Origin: an uncultured Bacteroidia bacterium
GTDB taxonomy: Bacteria; Bacteroidota; Bacteroidia; NS11-12g; UBA9320
Length of the DNA stretch: 64,000 nucleotides
Direction of reading: 5' to 3'
NCBI GenBank assembly: GCA_943789165.1
Contig: CALSTB010000005.1
Coordinates: 217,001 to 281,000 of the forward strand
The translations under genes and the position numbers were made by a program. Shown here one piece after another: positions 3,796 to 60,446 of this stretch (positions are counted from its first letter, which is position 1; each line of letters opens with the position of its first letter). Under the pieces are notes generated by a model that was not told the DNA's origin, made no database searches, and was given only the letters and a program-made list of their open reading frames with translations.

Positions 3796-4302
3796 TTACC
3801 AGTTAAGGGCTGCTTTGTTAAAAATTTCTTGAGCCAAATTGTCTGAAATGGATTCTATCAAATCGGCTTCGACGTCCGCTAGGGATTTGCTCGCATCAAA
3901 ATCTTCAAACTGCGTGAATCGCTGATCGAAGGCAAGGTGACTCGCTTTTTCACTCACCATTTTCATTTGAACGGATATTTGCAACCTGTTTTTTGAAGCG
4001 GTTGAATTATCAGCCGCGCCAACAGGGTTTACCGAATAGTCTACTACATTCCCTTCAATAGCGAAGTCGCCATTTTCGGAAATGAGGTTTAAATTGGTTT
4101 GAGTTAAAAATTTATTTCTAATTTTATCGGTTAAGGTCGGACTCAAATTAGGGGCGACGATGGGTGCCTTGTTTTCAATAAACGCAACACTTACTGTTTT
4201 AATGCTATCAGGGAAAGTAACACCATTTAGACTGTAAATGCCACAGGAGGTCCACTGTGTCATCACGATAACCGATATGAAAAGTGACTTAATCCAATTC
4301 AT
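3796..4302 (-). CDS. lptE: LptE-family LPS assembly lipoprotein
   Basis: 168 residues from the chosen start [14 protein letters not shown], which gives a normal signal peptide ending in Thr-Ser-Cys (residue 20) and then GIYSLNGVTFPDSIKTVSVAFIEN. That GxYSxxG start and the following fold are typical of the Bacteroidetes LptE family, the outer-membrane lipoprotein that plugs LptD during lipopolysaccharide insertion. An upstream in-frame Met would add 14 residues inside the preceding gene and spoil the signal peptide, so I reject it. The gene overlaps the end of the sigma-54 activator by 14 nt. The lipobox is non-ideal (Trp at -3). Confidence 0.85.
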   Translation of the reverse strand: MNWIKSLFISVIVMTQWTSCGIYSLNGVTFPDSIKTVSVAFIENKAPIVAPNLSPTLTDKIRNKFLTQTNLNLISENGDFAIEGNVVDYSVNPVGAADNSTASKNRLQISVQMKMVSEKASHLAFDQRFTQFEDFDASKSLADVEADLIESISDNLAQEIFNKAALNW

Positions 4303-5536
4303 ATTGCTTGATTTTACGGTATAACGTTCGTTCTGAAATGCCAAGGTCTTGTGCTGCTCGTTTTCGTTTTCCGTTGTTTTTTAATAAAGCCTTCTTTATC
4401 AATTCTTCTTCTTTATCCTCTAACGATAAATTTTCCTCCAACGAAACAGAATCCTCTGGTTCAATAATGTAATGGTCGTCATCGTCCACTACTTCTTCTT
4501 CGGGTCTATGAATCCTCATGTCTGACCGAACGTCTTCATGGTCTGAGGCTTCTGACAAAACACGTTTGATAATGGCTTCGTTGCCTTGGAGTATTTCTTC
4601 TTTCGAATTACTTTTCTTCAATAACTCCAACACAATCTTTTTCAAATCCGACATTTCATTTTTCATGTCGAACAACACTTTATAAAAAATGTCTCGCTCT
4701 GAAAAATCACTATTTTGTTGCCCGTTGCGACTTGCAAGCGCAGGCAAGTTTGTGGTGTGCTCTGGAAGATACTTGCGTAAAGTGGCAGCCGTGATGTGGT
4801 GGTCTTGCTCTAAAACAGCCAATTGTTCAGTTAAGTTTTTTAGCTGTCTAATGTTCCCTGGCCATGAATATTTTAAAAGCAACTCTTCTGCCTCAGCATC
4901 CAACTCAACTTCTGGTGAATGATACTTTTCGGCTAAATCAAAGGCAAACTTTCTAAAGAGTAAATAGATGTCTTGATTTCGTTCCCGTAAAGCAGGTACT
5001 TTTATCGGCAAGGTCGATAGTCGATAGTATAGGTCTTCACGGAATTTGCCATTTTGTGTTTCGGCAAACAAGTCTTTATTCGTTGCTGTGATAATCCGAA
5101 CATCGGTTGTCATCACTTTCGACGATCCCACCTTAATGAATTCGCCATTTTCTAAAAGTCTTAGTAGTCTCGACTGCGTTTCAAGCGGTAACTCGCCAAT
5201 TTCATCTAAGAATATGGTTCCGCCATTAACGGTTTCGAAATATCCTTTTCGATTGTCTATAGCGCCGGTGAACGCTCCTTTTTCATGACCAAATAATTCT
5301 GAGTTGATGGTTCCATCAGGAATGGCACCACAATTAATGGCGAAAAATGGACCGTGTTTACGGTTGCTGAGTTGATGAATGATTTTTGAAAACGACTCTT
5401 TACCAACACCGCTCTCTCCTTGGATGTATACGGTAATATCCGTTGGAGCAACTTTGACAGCTGTTTCCAAAGCATAATTCAGGCGGGGAGAATTCCCTGT
5501 AATTCCAAATCTATTTTTGATTTGTTGTAAATTCAT
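4289..5536 (-). CDS. Sigma-54-dependent transcriptional activator without receiver domain
   Basis: 415 residues. The AAA+ domain begins almost at the N-terminus: Walker A GESGVGKE at 40-47, the sigma-54 contact loop GAFTGA at about 87-92, Walker [13 protein letters not shown], and arginine-finger region [11 protein letters not shown] linker follows, and a Fis-type helix-turn-helix closes the protein ([20 protein letters not shown]). It should remodel RNA polymerase-sigma-54 at -24/-12 promoters. There is no receiver, GAF or PAS domain in front, so its control is not by a classical two-component partner within the same chain. It overlaps miaB by 4 nt (ATGA) and lptE by 14 nt. The same arrangement with lptE is familiar in Bacteroidetes. 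Confidence 0.93.
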
Positions 5537-7092: not shown

Positions 7093-7869
7093 GGTTCTGT
7101 CGCGTTAATCTTAGTAAATAGCGAAACGATTAATTTGCGACCATGAACTACAAACACCATCGATATCCCAAATCTATAATTCTTCAAGCGGTATATTTCA
7201 AGTTGAGATTTACATTGAGCTATCGCGACGTTGAAGAAATATTGAGAATTAGAGGTGTGAGAGTAGACCACTCAACAATTCAAAGATGGGTCTTTAAGTT
7301 CTCTCCTATTGTTGAAGCCAATATGCACAATCGGAAAAAGCAGGTTTGTGATAGTTGGAGGATGGATGAGACCTACATAAAAGTGGGTGGTAATGATAGA
7401 TATCTTTATCGAGCGGTTGATAAATATGGAAACACAGTTGATTTTCTGTTAACCAAGCGAAGAATGAAGGGTTCGGCTCAGAAGTTTTTGAACAAGGCTA
7501 TAGGGAATAACGACAAACCAAGGATAATCAACATTGACAAGAGTGGAGCGAATACAGCAGGGATACGTACAATTAATAAACGAAGTCTTTCACTAAAGAA
7601 GATAAAGATAAGACGAGTTAAGTATCTAAATAATATTGTTGAACAGGATCATCGGACTATTAAAAGGCGAATAGCAATAAGTACAGGATTCAAGGAATTT
7701 GAATCAGCCCAACGAACGTTGGCTGGAATAGAAATCATCAATATTATCAGAAAGAATCAACTCAAAGATTCAAGATCAAGTTGGTTTAACACATTTAAAT
7801 CTTTAGCAGCTTGATGAAAAGTGAAATCCCTCTACTTTTGGATACTAGAGGGATTAACGCGACAGTACC
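7093..7869 (+). mobile_element. IS6-family insertion sequence, 777 bp
   Basis: Terminal inverted repeats GGTTCTGTCGCGTTAATC (7093-7110) and, reverse-complemented, GGTACTGTCGCGTTAATC (7852-7869) agree at 17 of 18 positions and carry the family's CTGTxGC core. They enclose a single transposase gene. The 8-bp flanks (7085-7092 and 7870-7877) do not match, so no target duplication survives. The right flank begins inside the 3' end of an IS3-family element, whereas the left flank is ordinary chromosome. A deletion or recombination therefore followed insertion, as expected of replicative IS6 elements. Confidence 0.93.
7143..7814 (+). CDS. IS6-family DDE transposase
   Basis: 223 residues, near the usual 230-240 of the family. 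It begins with the IS6 helix-turn-helix region (LSYRDVEEILRIRGVRVDHS) and carries the DDE catalytic residues in WRMDETYIKV, INIDKSGAN and NIVEQDHRTIKRR. It looks intact and could be active. Two Ile/Arg-rich segments show an AT-rich codon style unlike the neighbouring miaB, consistent with recent arrival. Confidence 0.95.
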   Translation: MNYKHHRYPKSIILQAVYFKLRFTLSYRDVEEILRIRGVRVDHSTIQRWVFKFSPIVEANMHNRKKQVCDSWRMDETYIKVGGNDRYLYRAVDKYGNTVDFLLTKRRMKGSAQKFLNKAIGNNDKPRIINIDKSGANTAGIRTINKRSLSLKKIKIRRVKYLNNIVEQDHRTIKRRIAISTGFKEFESAQRTLAGIEIINIIRKNQLKDSRSSWFNTFKSLAA

Positions 7870-9734: not shown

Positions 9735-10128
9735 TCGTCAACATAGATAGAGCGATATACACTGGAAGCTGTGTTCCTCTATGAAGGCAGAAGACGTTAA
9801 AGCTACCTTAAATGAAGCCTTACTTGCTTCGGACGTTCCAGAGAACAGAAGGCCTAAACTTCTTTCGGACAATGGATCATGTTACATATCACTAGAACTT
9901 GCCAATTACCTACAGATCCAAAATATGAAACACGTTCGAGGTAGGCCTCTTCACCCCCAGACTCAAGGAAAGATTGAACGTTATCATAGATCCATGAAGA
10001 ATGTGGTCAAATTGGACAATTACTTCAGCCCGGAACAGCTGGAACAAAAACTTAATGAGTTCGTTTATTATTACAACAATAAACGCTACCATGAATCTTT
10101 GCAAAACCTGACTCCTGCAGAGGTTTAT
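9735..10128 (+). pseudogene. Fragment of a diverged IS3-family orfB transposase
   Basis: From the Trp-Lys-Leu-Cys-Ser-Ser-Met codons near 9763 the frame follows the orfB product of the intact copy downstream (SDNGSCYIS, GRPLHPQTQGKIERYHRS, LTPAEVY) with many synonymous and some amino-acid differences. The 5' half is missing, and the frame upstream has a stop (9748). The 3' end is cut exactly at 10128, where the next IS begins. It therefore belongs to a second, older IS3 lineage in the same genome. Not functional: the first catalytic Asp is gone. Confidence 0.88.
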
Positions 10129-10217
10129 TGTATACCGTCAGCAAAAAGTGAACTATTAAGGGTAAAGATTTAAGAGAGAGGTTTTAATATATTTATAACC
10201 CTTTAAATCACCCAGAG

Positions 10218-10579: not shown

Positions 10580-11554
10580 ATGCATTACAGTCAACAAGAG
10601 AAATACGAGTTGATTCAACTTGTAGAGCAATCAGATTTGGGTGTTATCCGCACTCTGAGAGAGCTTAAAATTAACAAAACAACATTTTACAACTGGTACA
10701 GAGCTTACACCGAGTTAGGCTATGAAGGACTGGCACGTAAGCCCAGCAAAAGGCAAGGTTCTTGGAATAGAATCAATGAGCAAGACCGGGACAAGGTAGT
10801 TGAGATAGCTTTAGAAAGGCCAGAGCTTTCGTCACGTGAAGTGGCCTGGCATATTACCGATACGTACAGCTATTACATCAGCGAATCTAGTGTTTATCGC
10901 ATACTAAAAGAAAATGGATTAATAACCACACCATCCTTTAGAATCATGAGTGCTTCGGACAGTTTTAAGGATAAAACCACACGAGTCAACCAGATGTGGC
11001 AGACGGACTTCACTTACTTCAAGATCTTCGGTTGGGGTTGGTATTACCTGTCAACCATATTAGATGACTATAGTCGATTTATAGTCAACTGGAGGCTGTG
11101 CTCTAGCATGAAGGCACAAGACGTGAAAGATACCCTAGATCAAGCCTTATTGGCCTCTGAGGTGTCACAGACCAACAAGCCAAAACTACTATCTGATAAT
11201 GGATCTTGTTATATCTCAAACGAACTTGCAGAATATCTTGGCAATCAAAATATGGAGCATATTAGAGGCCGTCCGTTACATCCACAGACCCAAGGAAAGA
11301 TAGAACGCTATCACCGATCCATGAAGAATGTGGTCAAACTAGACAATTATTTTAGTCCTGAACAACTGGAAAGAAAACTCAACGAGTTCGTGGAGTATTA
11401 CAACTACAAACGCTACCACGAATCTTTGCAGAACTTAACTCCTGCTGAGGTTTACTACGGAAAAGGCGAAGTGAAATTGAAGCAAAGGAAAAAGACCAAA
11501 ATCAGGACACTTAAGGCTCGTAAAAAACAGTATCAGAAATTTAAACTAAATTAG
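10580..11554 (+). CDS. IS3-family OrfB transposase (DDE)
   Basis: 324 residues from the first ATG; the active form is probably the OrfAB fusion. The N-terminal part has a second helix-turn-helix region (RTLRELKINKTTFYNWY), and the integrase core carries the DDE residues in MWQTDFTYFK, LLSDNGSCYIS and GKIERYHRSMKN. The tail is strongly basic. It looks intact. Its last 199 bp, including the IS end, recur at 7870-8068. Confidence 0.95.
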   Translation: MHYSQQEKYELIQLVEQSDLGVIRTLRELKINKTTFYNWYRAYTELGYEGLARKPSKRQGSWNRINEQDRDKVVEIALERPELSSREVAWHITDTYSYYISESSVYRILKENGLITTPSFRIMSASDSFKDKTTRVNQMWQTDFTYFKIFGWGWYYLSTILDDYSRFIVNWRLCSSMKAQDVKDTLDQALLASEVSQTNKPKLLSDNGSCYISNELAEYLGNQNMEHIRGRPLHPQTQGKIERYHRSMKNVVKLDNYFSPEQLERKLNEFVEYYNYKRYHESLQNLTPAEVYYGKGEVKLKQRKKTKIRTLKARKKQYQKFKLN

Positions 11555-58263: not shown

Positions 58264-58271
58264 CAAAGATA
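58264..58271 (-). promoter_or_regulatory. -7 element TATCTTTG of icmF
   Basis: Exact TAnnTTTG 18 nt before the icmF ATG and downstream of the cassette terminator, so icmF need not depend on the sigma-54 promoters. Confidence 0.5.
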
Positions 58272-58288: not shown

Positions 58289-58323
58289 GTAAAATAAAAG
58301 GCCGCCTAGTTAGGGCGGCCTTT
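58289..58323 (-). terminator. Terminator of sigma-54 cassette 1
   Basis: AAAGGCCGCC pairs with GGCGGCCTTT (58297-58306 with 58314-58323), followed on the minus strand by TATTTT. Directly before it stands the hairpin GCTC-GAGC (58326-58340). Confidence 0.88.
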
Positions 58324-58325
58324 AA

Positions 58326-58340
58326 GCTCGTAATTAGAGC
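58326..58340 (-). other. Conserved hairpin next to the cassette 1 terminator
   Basis: GCTC pairs with GAGC around a 7-nt loop, 2 nt from the terminator stem. Cassette 2 has a GCTCA/TGAGC hairpin in the same place (58731-58744) with a different loop. This suggests a conserved RNA 3' structure. Confidence 0.55.
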
Positions 58341-58363
58341 ATGGTAGTAATCAGTGGTTAGTT

Positions 58364-58489
58364 TTACTTGTCCCTCACGGGCTTAAGTGAGTAGTAGTAC
58401 AAATAGTAAAAACAGAATTTTAAATAATTTTCAAGTAGTAAGTAATAAGTAGTGTAGTATTTATCAAATGTTTTAATTTCTTCGTTCAT
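58364..58489 (-). CDS. Small tyrosine-rich ORF of sigma-54 cassette 1 (41 residues)
   Basis: ATG at 58489 to TAA at 58364 encodes a 41-residue peptide that begins MNEEIKTFDKYYTTYY and contains 11 Tyr, with the stretch FCFYYLYYYSL, and ends KPVRDK. It starts about 7 nt after the predicted sigma-54 transcription start. Cassette 2 shares IKTFDKYYTT. The central part is aromatic and uncharged enough to lie in a membrane. No known family. It could be a real peptide, or an RNA whose sequence happens to be open. Confidence 0.5.
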   Translation of the reverse strand: MNEEIKTFDKYYTTYYLLLENYLKFCFYYLYYYSLKPVRDK

Positions 58490-58507
58490 TTGAACAATTA
58501 ACTAAAG

Positions 58508-58522
58508 GCAATCGGTGTGCCA
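58508..58522 (-). promoter_or_regulatory. Consensus sigma-54 (-24/-12) promoter of cassette 1
   Basis: Minus-strand TGGCAC-ACCGA-TTGC has GG and GC in the exact sigma-54 spacing. The predicted start is near 58496, giving a transcript of about 200 nt to the terminator at 58289. Confidence 0.78.
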
Positions 58523-58625
58523 CAAAATGAAAAAAGTGATAAAAAAGTAAGTTAAACGGCATATAATCAAGTACTTATGTTGAAACGCTTTGGCTGATTG
58601 ACGGTGTGCCAAAATTGGTCATATG

Positions 58626-58657
58626 ATTCATAATGGGAATATATATTCAAAATGGGA
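58626..58657. promoter_or_regulatory. Direct repeat ATTCA(T/A)AATGGGA, likely activator site for cassette 1
   Basis: Two 13-bp copies (58626-58638 and 58645-58657), 12 of 13 equal, are 19 bp apart, near two helical turns. They lie about 110-140 bp upstream of the cassette 1 sigma-54 promoter, a usual enhancer distance. Confidence 0.55.
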
Positions 58658-58702
58658 CAAGGAACGTTTGGTTTGAAGAAGAATCTAAAATTGTGTCTAA
58701 CG

Positions 58703-58730
58703 AAAAAGGCCACCTTGTGGGTGGCCTTTT
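58703..58730 (-). terminator. Terminator of sigma-54 cassette 2
   Basis: AAAAGGCCACC pairs with GGTGGCCTTTT around TTGTG, followed on the minus strand by T. Compared with cassette 1, paired positions differ on both arms (GCCGCC/GGCGGC against GCCACC/GGTGGC), so pairing is kept. Confidence 0.85.
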
Positions 58731-58791
58731 GCTCAAGAGTGAGCTGGTTAATAATAAAGTTAAGTTAATTTAAAAACGCGTTAGCGTTTCA

Positions 58792-58881
58792 TTAAGTAGT
58801 AGAATCAGTAATTAATAACTTCAAGTAGTAAGTAATAAGTAGTGTAGTGTAGTATTTATCAAAAGTCTTAATTGGTGTCAT
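58792..58881 (-). CDS. Paralogous small ORF of sigma-54 cassette 2 (29 residues, probably frameshifted)
   Basis: ATG at 58881 to TAA at 58792 begins MTPIKTFDKYYTT, like cassette 1, then diverges (LLITYYLKLL). Relative to cassette 1 the DNA carries 5 extra bases (a second CACTA unit near 58842-58850), which shifts the frame. Without them it would read on through YYLLLE and stop after VINY. So the peptide is not conserved past residue 13. Confidence 0.4.
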   Translation of the reverse strand: MTPIKTFDKYYTTLLITYYLKLLITDSTT

Positions 58882-58900
58882 CCGATGTGTTAAGTATATT

Positions 58901-58915
58901 CCAATAGGTGTGCCA
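58901..58915 (-). promoter_or_regulatory. Sigma-54-like promoter of cassette 2
   Basis: TGGCAC-ACCTA-TTGG: perfect -24 and one mismatch in the -12 (GG for GC). The distance to its ATG is one base different from cassette 1. Confidence 0.55.
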
Positions 58916-59002
58916 CAACAGATCATCTTGCTTGTTTTTGGTATTTAAAACACTGTAAAACAACATGTTATGTTGAAATATGACAAAAGTTTATAAATGA
59001 AC

Positions 59003-59030
59003 ATAAAATGGAAAATGTCTCATAATGGGA
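59003..59030. promoter_or_regulatory. ATAAAATGGA/ATAATGGGA repeats, likely activator site for cassette 2
   Basis: Two imperfect copies of the same motif found upstream of cassette 1, again about 90-115 bp upstream of the -24/-12. A CATAATGGGAATA core is shared exactly between the two sites (58629-58641 and 59021-59033). Confidence 0.5.
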
Positions 59031-59093
59031 ATAAAGTCCCAAATGTGTTCACAAATTGGTGTATTTATTGGTTTTCGCTATTCCATTTTTTTG

Positions 59094-59101
59094 CACCTTT
59101 G
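59094..59101 (+). promoter_or_regulatory. Near-match -7 element CACCTTTG before nupC
   Basis: One mismatch to TAnnTTTG, with 4 nt (TCCG) before the ATG at 59106. Confidence 0.35.
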
Positions 59102-59105
59102 TCCG

Positions 59106-60446
59106 ATGTACATAATCAAAGGGTTTATAGGCCTTATTGCTTTACTGCTTATAGCATTTTTATTTAGTTCACACAAAAAGTCTATTAACTGGAGACTGGT
59201 TCTTTCGGGAGTTGGAATGCAACTTTTGCTTGCGTTATTAATTTTTAAAGTCCCAGGATTCGATATGGTGTTTGAATGGTTGGCCGCAAGTTTTACCAAA
59301 CTCTTGTCCTTTACAGATGAAGGTGCCCAATTTATATTTGGTACTTGGCCAGATACCGCACAGATATTTTCAGTTCAAAATGTAGACGGTACGTATAAAC
59401 CTGTCGCACATACAATTGGTTATGTGTTTGCCTTTAAGGTTCTGCCAACGATTGTTTTCTTCTCTGCACTTACGTCTTTGTTATATTACTTAGGGATACT
59501 TCAAAAGATTGTATATGGATTTGCTTGGATACTTAGTAAAACCATGCGTCTATCTGGTGCTGAGAGCTTAGCAGCCGCAGCCAACGTGTTTGTTGGTCAG
59601 ACAGAAGCACCCTTGGTCGTAAAGCCATACATCAAGGGCATGACTAAGTCCGAAATTCTTTGTTTGATGACGGGAGGAATGGCCACCATCGCTGGAGGCG
59701 TGTTCGCCGCGTTTATCGGTATGCTCGGAGGTGAGAGTGTAGAAATGCAACAAATGTTTGCCAAACACCTCTTAACCGCATCCGTTTTATCTGCGCCTGC
59801 GGCCATAGTTTTTTCTAAAATGCTGTTACCCGAAAAAGAGAAGGTAGACAAAGACCTAAATATTGATAAGTCTAAAATCGGTTCAGGACCCTTGGAAGCC
59901 ATTTCCATTGGAACGACTGAAGGCATTAAGCTAGCAGTGAACGTAGGTGGAATGATTTTAGTTTTTCTAGCGTTTATAGCCATGATTAACTATTTCCTAT
60001 CTGACGTCATTGGCGCCAATACTGGATTGAACGAATGGGTGCAAAACGTGAGTAATGGTACGTATTCTGAATTTAAGTTACAGATGATTTTAGGCTACCT
60101 ATTCGCACCTATTGCTTGGATCATAGGTATTCCATGGGAAGACACAATCCTAGCTGGACAGTTGTTGGGAGAGAAAACAGTCATCAACGAATTTATCGCT
60201 TACATTTCTTTAGGAAGTATGAAGGACCAAGGGTTATTGGTACATACACGAACCATTGTGATCATGACGTACGCACTATGCGGTTTTTCAAATTTCGCAT
60301 CAATAGGCATACAGATTGGAGGCATTGGGACTATAGCTCCGAATCAACGACCTACGTTAGCCAGACTTGGACTAAAAGCCCTATTAGGAGGAACCTTAGC
60401 TTGTTTAATGACCGCCGCAGTGGCAGGAATATTTTATGCATCATAA
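59106..60446 (+). CDS. nupC: NupC-family concentrative nucleoside transporter
   Basis: 446 residues from MYIIKGFIGLIALLLIAF. The family blocks are AAANVFVGQTEAPLVVKPYI (nucleoside-binding), MTGGMATIAGGVFAAFIGML (shortened) and near the end GFSNFASIGIQIGG. About ten membrane helices. It imports nucleosides with sodium or protons. The longer ORF reaching upstream to 59025 adds residues that do not look like this family. Its end overlaps the next gene by 11 nt. Confidence 0.93.
   Translation: MYIIKGFIGLIALLLIAFLFSSHKKSINWRLVLSGVGMQLLLALLIFKVPGFDMVFEWLAASFTKLLSFTDEGAQFIFGTWPDTAQIFSVQNVDGTYKPVAHTIGYVFAFKVLPTIVFFSALTSLLYYLGILQKIVYGFAWILSKTMRLSGAESLAAAANVFVGQTEAPLVVKPYIKGMTKSEILCLMTGGMATIAGGVFAAFIGMLGGESVEMQQMFAKHLLTASVLSAPAAIVFSKMLLPEKEKVDKDLNIDKSKIGSGPLEAISIGTTEGIKLAVNVGGMILVFLAFIAMINYFLSDVIGANTGLNEWVQNVSNGTYSEFKLQMILGYLFAPIAWIIGIPWEDTILAGQLLGEKTVINEFIAYISLGSMKDQGLLVHTRTIVIMTYALCGFSNFASIGIQIGGIGTIAPNQRPTLARLGLKALLGGTLACLMTAAVAGIFYAS

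Follow-up and report, generated by a model that had tools for sequence, protein, structure and literature searches.

The Qrr small RNAs (sRNAs) of Vibrio are encoded in several sigma-54-dependent copies under an NtrC-type activator (LuxO) and act by Hfq-aided base-pairing; GlmY is also under sigma-54 control and mimics another sRNA, and the CsrB/RsmY systems are built on GGA motifs and CsrA. Here we describe a locus that can be compared with each of these, located in a 64,000-nt stretch of DNA from an uncultured Bacteroidia bacterium (contig CALSTB010000005.1, positions 217,001 to 281,000; the whole stretch analysed is hereafter called the window). On the minus strand of the gap between nupC and icmF, two cassettes in tandem, copy A and copy B, are each predicted to produce an sRNA with UACU repeats from a sigma-54-type promoter. 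As with Qrr, there are several sigma-54-type sRNA copies, whereas antisense pairing as sampled here was not above chance (231 translation starts, one query copy, 20 shuffles). In contrast to GlmY, the present sRNA resembles mRNA leaders, and unlike CsrB/RsmY its motif is UACU, carried in mostly unpaired segments.

Other comparisons can be made with published systems. CsrB/RsmY-type sponges resemble the present case in that a short motif is common to the sponge RNA and the mRNA targets of its ligand (PMC12119571), and the GlmY/GlmZ-RapZ system of Enterobacteria provides another example of a decoy sRNA (PMC7073468). Pseudomonas CrcZ acts as a decoy for Hfq, a repressor of mRNAs at ribosome-binding sites (PMC4063720), and CrcZ is RpoN-dependent in Azotobacter (PMC6292655). 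Like CrcZ/CrcY of the Hfq-Crc system in Pseudomonadaceae, the sRNA described here would be a small RNA from an RpoN-type promoter and a proposed decoy for an RNA-binding protein; it differs in phylum, in having no Rfam match, in carrying UACU repeats in place of A-rich Hfq sites, and in that its ligand is only proposed. FopS/GibS of Bacteroides thetaiotaomicron, which are bound by the RRM-1 protein RbpB, are likewise multicopy Bacteroidota sRNAs with an unpaired segment (5' in FopS) and a terminator (PMC11697453). However, FopS is transcribed with the housekeeping sigma factor, has 14 paralogues around the genome and represses susC by base-pairing, which RbpB counteracts (PMC11697453), and no Rfam match at threshold ties the present RNA to FopS/GibS.

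Cassettes in the nupC-icmF gap of one genus

The cassettes were read from the sequence and re-read by script, which confirmed the two tandem minus-strand units that an earlier note on this DNA had reported. Five genomes of one uncultured Bacteroidota genus were examined (G000, the source of the window, to G004). Copies were searched for at the DNA level with copy B in 58 genomes, and with an RNA covariance model (R1, built from the six copies of alignment A3) over 38 genomes of the family and, with stricter filters, over 108 genomes of the order, the family genomes included. Eleven copies were identified in the five genus genomes (2, 2, 2, 3 and 2 in G000 to G004), every one of them between nupC and icmF, while the R1 search gave no copies in the 33 other family genomes nor in the 103 other order genomes. 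In G004 the assembly breaks within this gap, with one contig ending beside icmF (L013) and another beside nupC (L195). The covariance-model search that the earlier note had proposed recovers the same promoter-hairpin order in other genomes, although only within one genus. Matches of the copy B DNA search in G010 and G042 and a 15-bit R1 match in L012 were discarded as chance. Additionally, an exact DNA pattern scanned against 84,980 species genomes, from which records close to the window may be missing, gave eight stretches, four of them from this genus; four single matches elsewhere (titled Fibrobacteres, Alphaproteobacteria, Anaerococcus and Anaeroplasma) were taken as chance.

Common to all 11 copies are TGGCA(C/T)-N5-TTG, upstream boxes, a TTTGATRAATACTA core with UACU repeats, and a terminator, and the predicted transcripts measure 181-210 nt. 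The position of the sigma-54-type -24/-12 element is conserved throughout (ten copies compared together, G004 copy 2 separately). Boxes of four kinds, TCCCA(A/T), (A/T)TGGGA, GTCTC and GAGAC, were counted within 190 nt upstream of each copy; the 11 stretches hold 24, with at least one in each, compared to 3.1 +/- 1.7 (maximum 9) in 300 shuffles, a contrast that is flattered by the patterns having been picked after inspection of these sequences. The upstream repeats of the earlier note recur beyond the window, and its GCTC/GAGC hairpin, the CACTACTTATTACTTACTAC segment common to copies A and B, and the A-U to G-C swap between their terminators with pairing kept are all as it described.

No match to Rfam release 15 was obtained at the curated threshold for nine loci, including L009 holding both cassettes, and all 20 matches listed in an Rfam scan of the window lay under their gathering scores. 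In the titles and abstract starts of the open-access literature, no UACU sRNA, sigma-54 sRNA, RRM-linked RNA or sponge RNA of Bacteroidota was recognised. These results agree with the earlier note, which knew of no described family of this kind. This looks like a new RNA family, a tandem sigma-54-type sRNA fixed in one gene gap of the whole genus.

The structure of the predicted sRNA was evaluated in folds and in alignment A3. In folds of the 5'-terminal 24 nt, made for ten copies, nine show some pairing (in one case two pairs only) and G004 copy 1 shows none, and the sequences of these hairpins differ. Across the six A3 copies, 89.9% of the cells in the named helices are paired, versus 30-59% when the helices are slid. 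Three pairs are changed on both sides, and the covariation score is 0.120, with one slid version scoring higher (0.133 at +3). Because the double changes all fall in the terminator and the covariation score is exceeded by a slid version, it is chiefly the terminator and the placement of the hairpins that support the structure. In the consensus fold the core stays unpaired, whereas in some copies it is partly paired when the sequence is folded singly.

UACU elements in mRNA leaders

The link between the cassettes and mRNA leaders lies outside the 64-kb window. BLAST detected in G001 a 23-base perfect sense match immediately upstream of the ATG that starts the gene of a predicted secreted protein, and a search with the 20-base core found it again. 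The predicted surface-protein family to which this protein belongs was then delimited to 11 loci in the five genomes, after two of 13 rows had been dropped (L135 overlaps L132, and L136 is a weak match beside another gene); in G000 it shows a Por secretion tail scoring above the cut-off and an SdrD_B match that narrowly misses it. Ten of these 11 loci have a leader with 2-6 TACT that ends in TTGATGAA-ATG, in its fullest form TTTGATACTACTATTACTACTACTACTTAATTATTGATGAA-ATG, and at L132 the leader is kept while the gene start is frame-broken. The frame of the repeat relative to the start differs among these leaders (L124 versus L131), which argues that the repeat is kept as RNA. At nine of these ten surface-protein loci, TCTANNTTT(G/A) stands after a TTCCCA/GTCTCA-type box, and a slightly stricter form of this arrangement was found at none of 231 sampled upstream regions.

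These and the following comparisons use a G000 sample of 464 kb (20 stretches and the window, about 15% of the genome) with 368 open reading frames (ORFs) and 231 free leaders. At least three TACT per 60-nt leader were counted in eight of ten surface-protein leaders versus two of the 231 sampled ones, namely those of a secreted protein of about 190 residues and of a stand-alone response regulator (PF00072), whose UACU leader recurs in G003. The first 110 nt of ten sRNA copies hold 3-13 TACT. Among 233 leaders, that of the response regulator matched the two G000 sRNAs best in sense (21.0), followed by the surface-protein leader L124 (17.4); with 30 shuffled sRNA pairs, the top score across all leaders was 13.8 +/- 1.2 (maximum 17.0). 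As expected of a decoy RNA, the sRNA repeats a motif found in the mRNA leaders of its presumed regulon.

Two further kinds of UACU site were identified. In all five genomes, the gene of a secreted PKD-domain protein (Pfam, G000 copy) has a leader hairpin GCUG(A/G)C...G(U/C)CAGC with AAUGCGACUACUACUACU in its loop, in which one pair is changed on both sides, from A-U to G-C, in G004. A second predicted sRNA, present in G000, G001, G002 and G004, combines a ACTACTACTACTTT stretch, TTCCCA/GTCTATATTTG-type promoter boxes like those of the surface-protein genes, and a terminator. Two of its loci were examined, and in both it converges on a gene that resembles rluD by eye. In G004, it shares a stretch of 18 identical bases with the PKD loop.

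The placement of the repeats was also considered. In G000, eight of 11 distinct TACTACTACT sites lie outside coding ORFs by our reading, with one of them (contig C7) uncertain. Other TACTACTACT sites fall in coding sequence or are followed by no clear gene. Under a generous ORF call, non-coding DNA makes up about 8% of the sample, compared to non-coding shares of 18/69 for TACTACT, 7/43 for CTACTAC and 11/66 for ACTACTA, and of 0/102, 5/117 and 6/118 for the reversed controls TCATCAT, CATCATC and ATCATCA.

As a separate observation, a conserved non-coding stretch occurs in L161 (from about 1500; G000:C3:131352) and L149 (G002:C23:30342), with no Rfam match at threshold. In L161, TACTACTACT stands directly after a TATCTTCG-like box, and an intrinsic terminator lies some 160-190 nt further.

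A proposed decoy and the competing explanations

The explanation that we favor, tentatively and with a confidence a little short of even, is that each cassette is a sigma-54-dependent sRNA gene and that the sRNA serves as a decoy, titrating an RNA-binding protein (probably an RRM protein) away from UACU leaders. Sigma-54 and an activator binding the boxes would raise the sRNA; one ligand would read all UACU elements, and the sRNA would compete for it and draw it off the UACU leaders of surface-protein mRNAs, where the effect of the ligand may be repression or activation. The sRNA and the leaders match in sense and hence would not pair with each other, but could compete for a common ligand. A decoy is preferred due to this sense match, to sampled antisense matches being no better than shuffles, and to the presence of two RRM proteins in every genome of the genus. 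Those of G000 have 128 and 86 residues and start at G000:C3:28690 and 70357. The choice of an RRM protein as ligand is a guess based on what the genomes encode; a protein of some other kind, or an antisense RNA, would agree with the sequence facts equally well. RbpB, the best-studied RRM protein of the phylum in the papers considered, works with base-pairing sRNAs (PMC11697453).

A wider and more speculative proposal, which we regard as possible though less likely than not, is that two classes of UACU decoy, one sigma-54-driven and the other expressed from a sigma-A promoter with the TTCCCA boxes of the surface genes, together set the free level of the protein that reads the UACU element in surface-protein and regulator mRNA leaders, in an undescribed Csr/Rsm-like circuit made from other parts. 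If the decoy explanation is true, one short element would define the sRNA and its regulon alike, making ligand and regulon directly testable, and sigma-54 would stand above surface-protein expression by way of an RNA, as it does with CrcZ for carbon use in pseudomonads. Mechanism aside, the apparent new tandem sigma-54-type sRNA family remains.

Several observations weigh against the decoy explanation. One of the 11 surface-protein loci, L130, is without the UACU repeat, and G004 copy 1 of the sRNA holds only 3-4 TACT. The L124 score is barely above that of the best shuffle, the second G000 surface-protein leader (L129) scores at the ordinary shuffle level of 13.5, and third place, at 16.0, is taken by the L118 leader, which is unrelated and has no UACU. 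UACU-type hexamers are not commoner in sense across the 231 leaders (TACTAC: 5 sense, 8 antisense, 3 reversed), for which reason UACU was rejected as a general leader signal and the element is taken to be confined to few genes; likewise, TACTACTACT is no commoner in the G000 genome than its reversed control (15 versus 22). The UACU repeats are simple sequence and could be of convergent origin, and simple A+T-rich repeats may gather between genes for other reasons. The covariation in the PKD hairpin consists of one pair in one genome and is reached by 98 of 500 shuffles. Additionally, RRM proteins were found in five of seven other family genomes searched, which are without this sRNA, and no RpoN-box match was listed in a text scan of loci that cover part of the genome, no family-model search for rpoN having been made.

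A different use of the unpaired core would be Qrr-like base-pairing at translation starts, blocking or opening them, and this antisense explanation we consider unlikely but still a serious contender. A long conserved segment that is unpaired in the consensus fold, together with several copies, is what known base-pairing sRNAs have, and the leader of a predicted secreted protein at L023 (G000:C3), which is outside the 231 starts used for duplex energies, has, a short distance upstream of its ATG, 14 nt that are perfectly complementary to the core, a point that counts against the decoy as well. However, the duplex energies of nt 21-115 of the query copy (G000_2) with the 231 start regions were no stronger than those of dinucleotide shuffles (best -25.6 versus -27.1 +/- 2.8; mean -12.5 versus -12.9), the core differs in repeat number from copy to copy, which would shift any fixed pairing register, and the related leaders match the sRNA in sense and so cannot pair with it. 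As the sample covers about 15% of the genome, these results only weaken the antisense explanation. If instead the sRNA were a decoy for another RNA, an antisense sRNA or an mRNA with AGUAGU repeats would pair with all UACU elements. Such an RNA ligand accounts for the sense sharing as well as a protein does, and repeats placed in a hairpin loop suit pairing also, but a long ORF is found opposite only one of the 11 distinct TACTACTACT sites in G000, AGUAGU RNAs having been searched for in no other way; we consider this explanation rather improbable.

The remaining explanations concern what the cassettes are. The earlier note had allowed for sigma-54-driven transcripts of about 190-200 nt acting as sRNA, peptide or both, and of these the conserved, predicted sRNA stands while the peptide does not. 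In both G000 copies, an ATG-led ORF with IKTFDKYYTT begins a few bases past the predicted start, as short Tyr-rich peptides, alone or in dual-function RNAs, would have it. Yet an in-frame ATG between the predicted +1 and FDKY is present in those two copies only, a third has an in-frame TTG giving an 8-codon ORF, and the remaining eight of 11 are without a start; changes of 5 and 14 bases in the repeats shift the frame after FDKYYTT between copies, and in G004 copy 2 the ORF stops after FDEY. The leader of 7-8 nt in the earlier note accordingly holds for the two G000 copies but is not a general feature, the ATG after it being absent elsewhere. The Tyr richness of the ORF is explained by the UAC repeats of the RNA. 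Each cassette has its own promoter and terminator and no conserved ORF; given the missing starts and the frame shifts, its predicted product is a non-coding sRNA, a peptide is not supported, and we hold the peptide explanation to be scarcely credible. Very improbable, too, is that the cassettes are 5' leader or attenuator elements of icmF and not independent RNAs, as their tandem position before icmF in all five genomes might suggest. Besides the promoter and terminator of each copy, a TATCTTTG box stands between terminator B and the icmF ATG, in the relatives too, so that icmF likely has its own promoter, and the copies that are followed by another copy have no gene to control.

Promoters, activators and positions in the window

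A pattern derived from the boxes matched in four of the five genomes, not in G000, and its backwards control gave one match in total. The matches were the sRNA promoters of G001, G002 and G004 and another five sites carrying these boxes, of which G003 has four and G004 one; two more in G004 (C170 and C244) look unrelated. Three of the five further sites lead into the start of the secreted protein of about 190 residues, and in the other two the contigs end first. The gene for this protein has boxes and a TGGCAC-type element in G001, and in G000 a UACU leader with no TGGCAC-type element seen. By itself, the bare TGGCAC/TTGC pattern is no guide to promoters, since five of eight matches inspected lie inside coding sequence by eye. 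TGGCACTTGTGTTGC recurs in G000, and its copies in L001, L002, L004 and L005 lie in one repeated, apparently coding sequence and are not promoters.

A G000 gene starting like dnaK (named by eye) has a sigma-54-type promoter, TTGGCACTTGTATTGC, just upstream (L006 1501-1515, G000:C2:36437). In Flavobacterium psychrophilum, sigma-54 promoters precede chaperone genes, dnaK among them, and one contributes to an adhesin operon (PMC9723704), and predicted Bacteroidota sigma-54 regulons are enriched in chaperone genes (PMC12316311).

PF00158, the domain of sigma-54 activators, has 11 matches in G000, four of them strong (Table 1). Candidates for binding the TTCCCA/GTCTC boxes include the activators at G000:C5:123164 and 870876 and the one in the window. 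In G000, G002, G003 and G004, relatives of one strong candidate, L102, are followed after about 150-210 nt by the gene of a secreted surface protein. This activator gene has an in-frame stop in G002 (L125 about 92-1309, G002:C41) and is open in G000, G003 and G004.

Table 1. Positions of the cassette features in the window, with activator candidates and the second predicted sRNA.
Feature	Position	Strand	Basis or remark
Copy A upstream boxes TTGGGACTTTATTCCCATTATGAGAC	59017..59042	-	Sequence; likely sigma-54 activator binding site
Copy A sigma-54-type -24/-12 promoter, TGGCAC-N5-TTGG	58901..58915	-	Sequence
Copy A predicted sRNA, 188 nt	58703..58890	-	R1 match 58880-58702, 81.9 bits; genus-conserved
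Copy A conserved UACU-repeat core	58820..58863	-	Sequence comparison
Copy A GCUC/GAGC hairpin	58731..58744	-	Sequence; corresponding A3 hairpin paired in all cells of six copies, copy A not included
Copy A intrinsic terminator	58703..58730	-	Sequence and fold
Copy A short Tyr-rich ORF (MTPIKTFDKYYTT...), ATG 58881	58792..58881	-	Judged incidental; start codon not conserved
Copy B upstream boxes TTGTCCCATTTTGAATATATATTCCCATTATGAATC, direct repeat TCCCATTTTGAA / TCCCATTATGAA	58625..58660	-	Sequence
Copy B sigma-54-type -24/-12 promoter, TGGCAC-N5-TTGC	58508..58522	-	Sequence
Copy B predicted sRNA, 202 nt	58296..58497	-	R1 match 58485-58294, 222.3 bits; copy B is among the six sequences of R1
Copy B 5' hairpin GUUC/GAAC	58484..58495	-	Pairing mostly kept, sequence variable between copies (folds of first 24 nt, ten copies)
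Copy B conserved UACU-repeat core	58430..58468	-	Sequence comparison
Copy B second UACU cluster TTTACTATTTGTACTACTACT	58390..58410	-	Near-identical in 5/6 A3 rows, weaker in G004
Copy B CUU/AAG and CCC/GGG hairpin	58367..58387	-	Paired cells: CUU/AAG 72%, CCC/GGG 94%
Copy B GCUC/GAGC hairpin	58326..58340	-	A3 alignment
Copy B intrinsic terminator	58296..58323	-	Sequence; 3 pairs changed on both sides
Copy B short Tyr-rich ORF (MNEEIKTFDKYYTT...), ATG 58489	58364..58489	-	Judged incidental
TATCTTTG, sigma-A type -7 box before icmF, after terminator B	58264..58271	-	Sequence; present in four relatives too
Strong activator in the window	4289..5536	-	PF00158, Fis-type HTH; candidate only
Strong activator L101			Receiver domain, Fis HTH
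Strong activator L103			Receiver domain; HTH match under cut-off
Strong activator L102			Receiver domain; no HTH match
Second predicted sRNA	L174 about 1350-1650 (G000:C5 near 162860-163150); L147, L139, L191		

Some smaller observations were made around the cassettes. A TTGGCAC without a partner stands at 58606-58612, between the boxes and the promoter of copy B, and similar TTGGCA(C/T) sequences occur in G001 and G002; it is perhaps a relic of an older promoter. The nupC ORF as listed (59025-60446) has a start at 59025 that overlaps the boxes of copy A, and the true start is more likely the methionine of MYIIKGF at 59106. Near the start of the window, transposase-like ORFs were recognised by eye at 7143-7814, 9781-10173 and 10580-11554.

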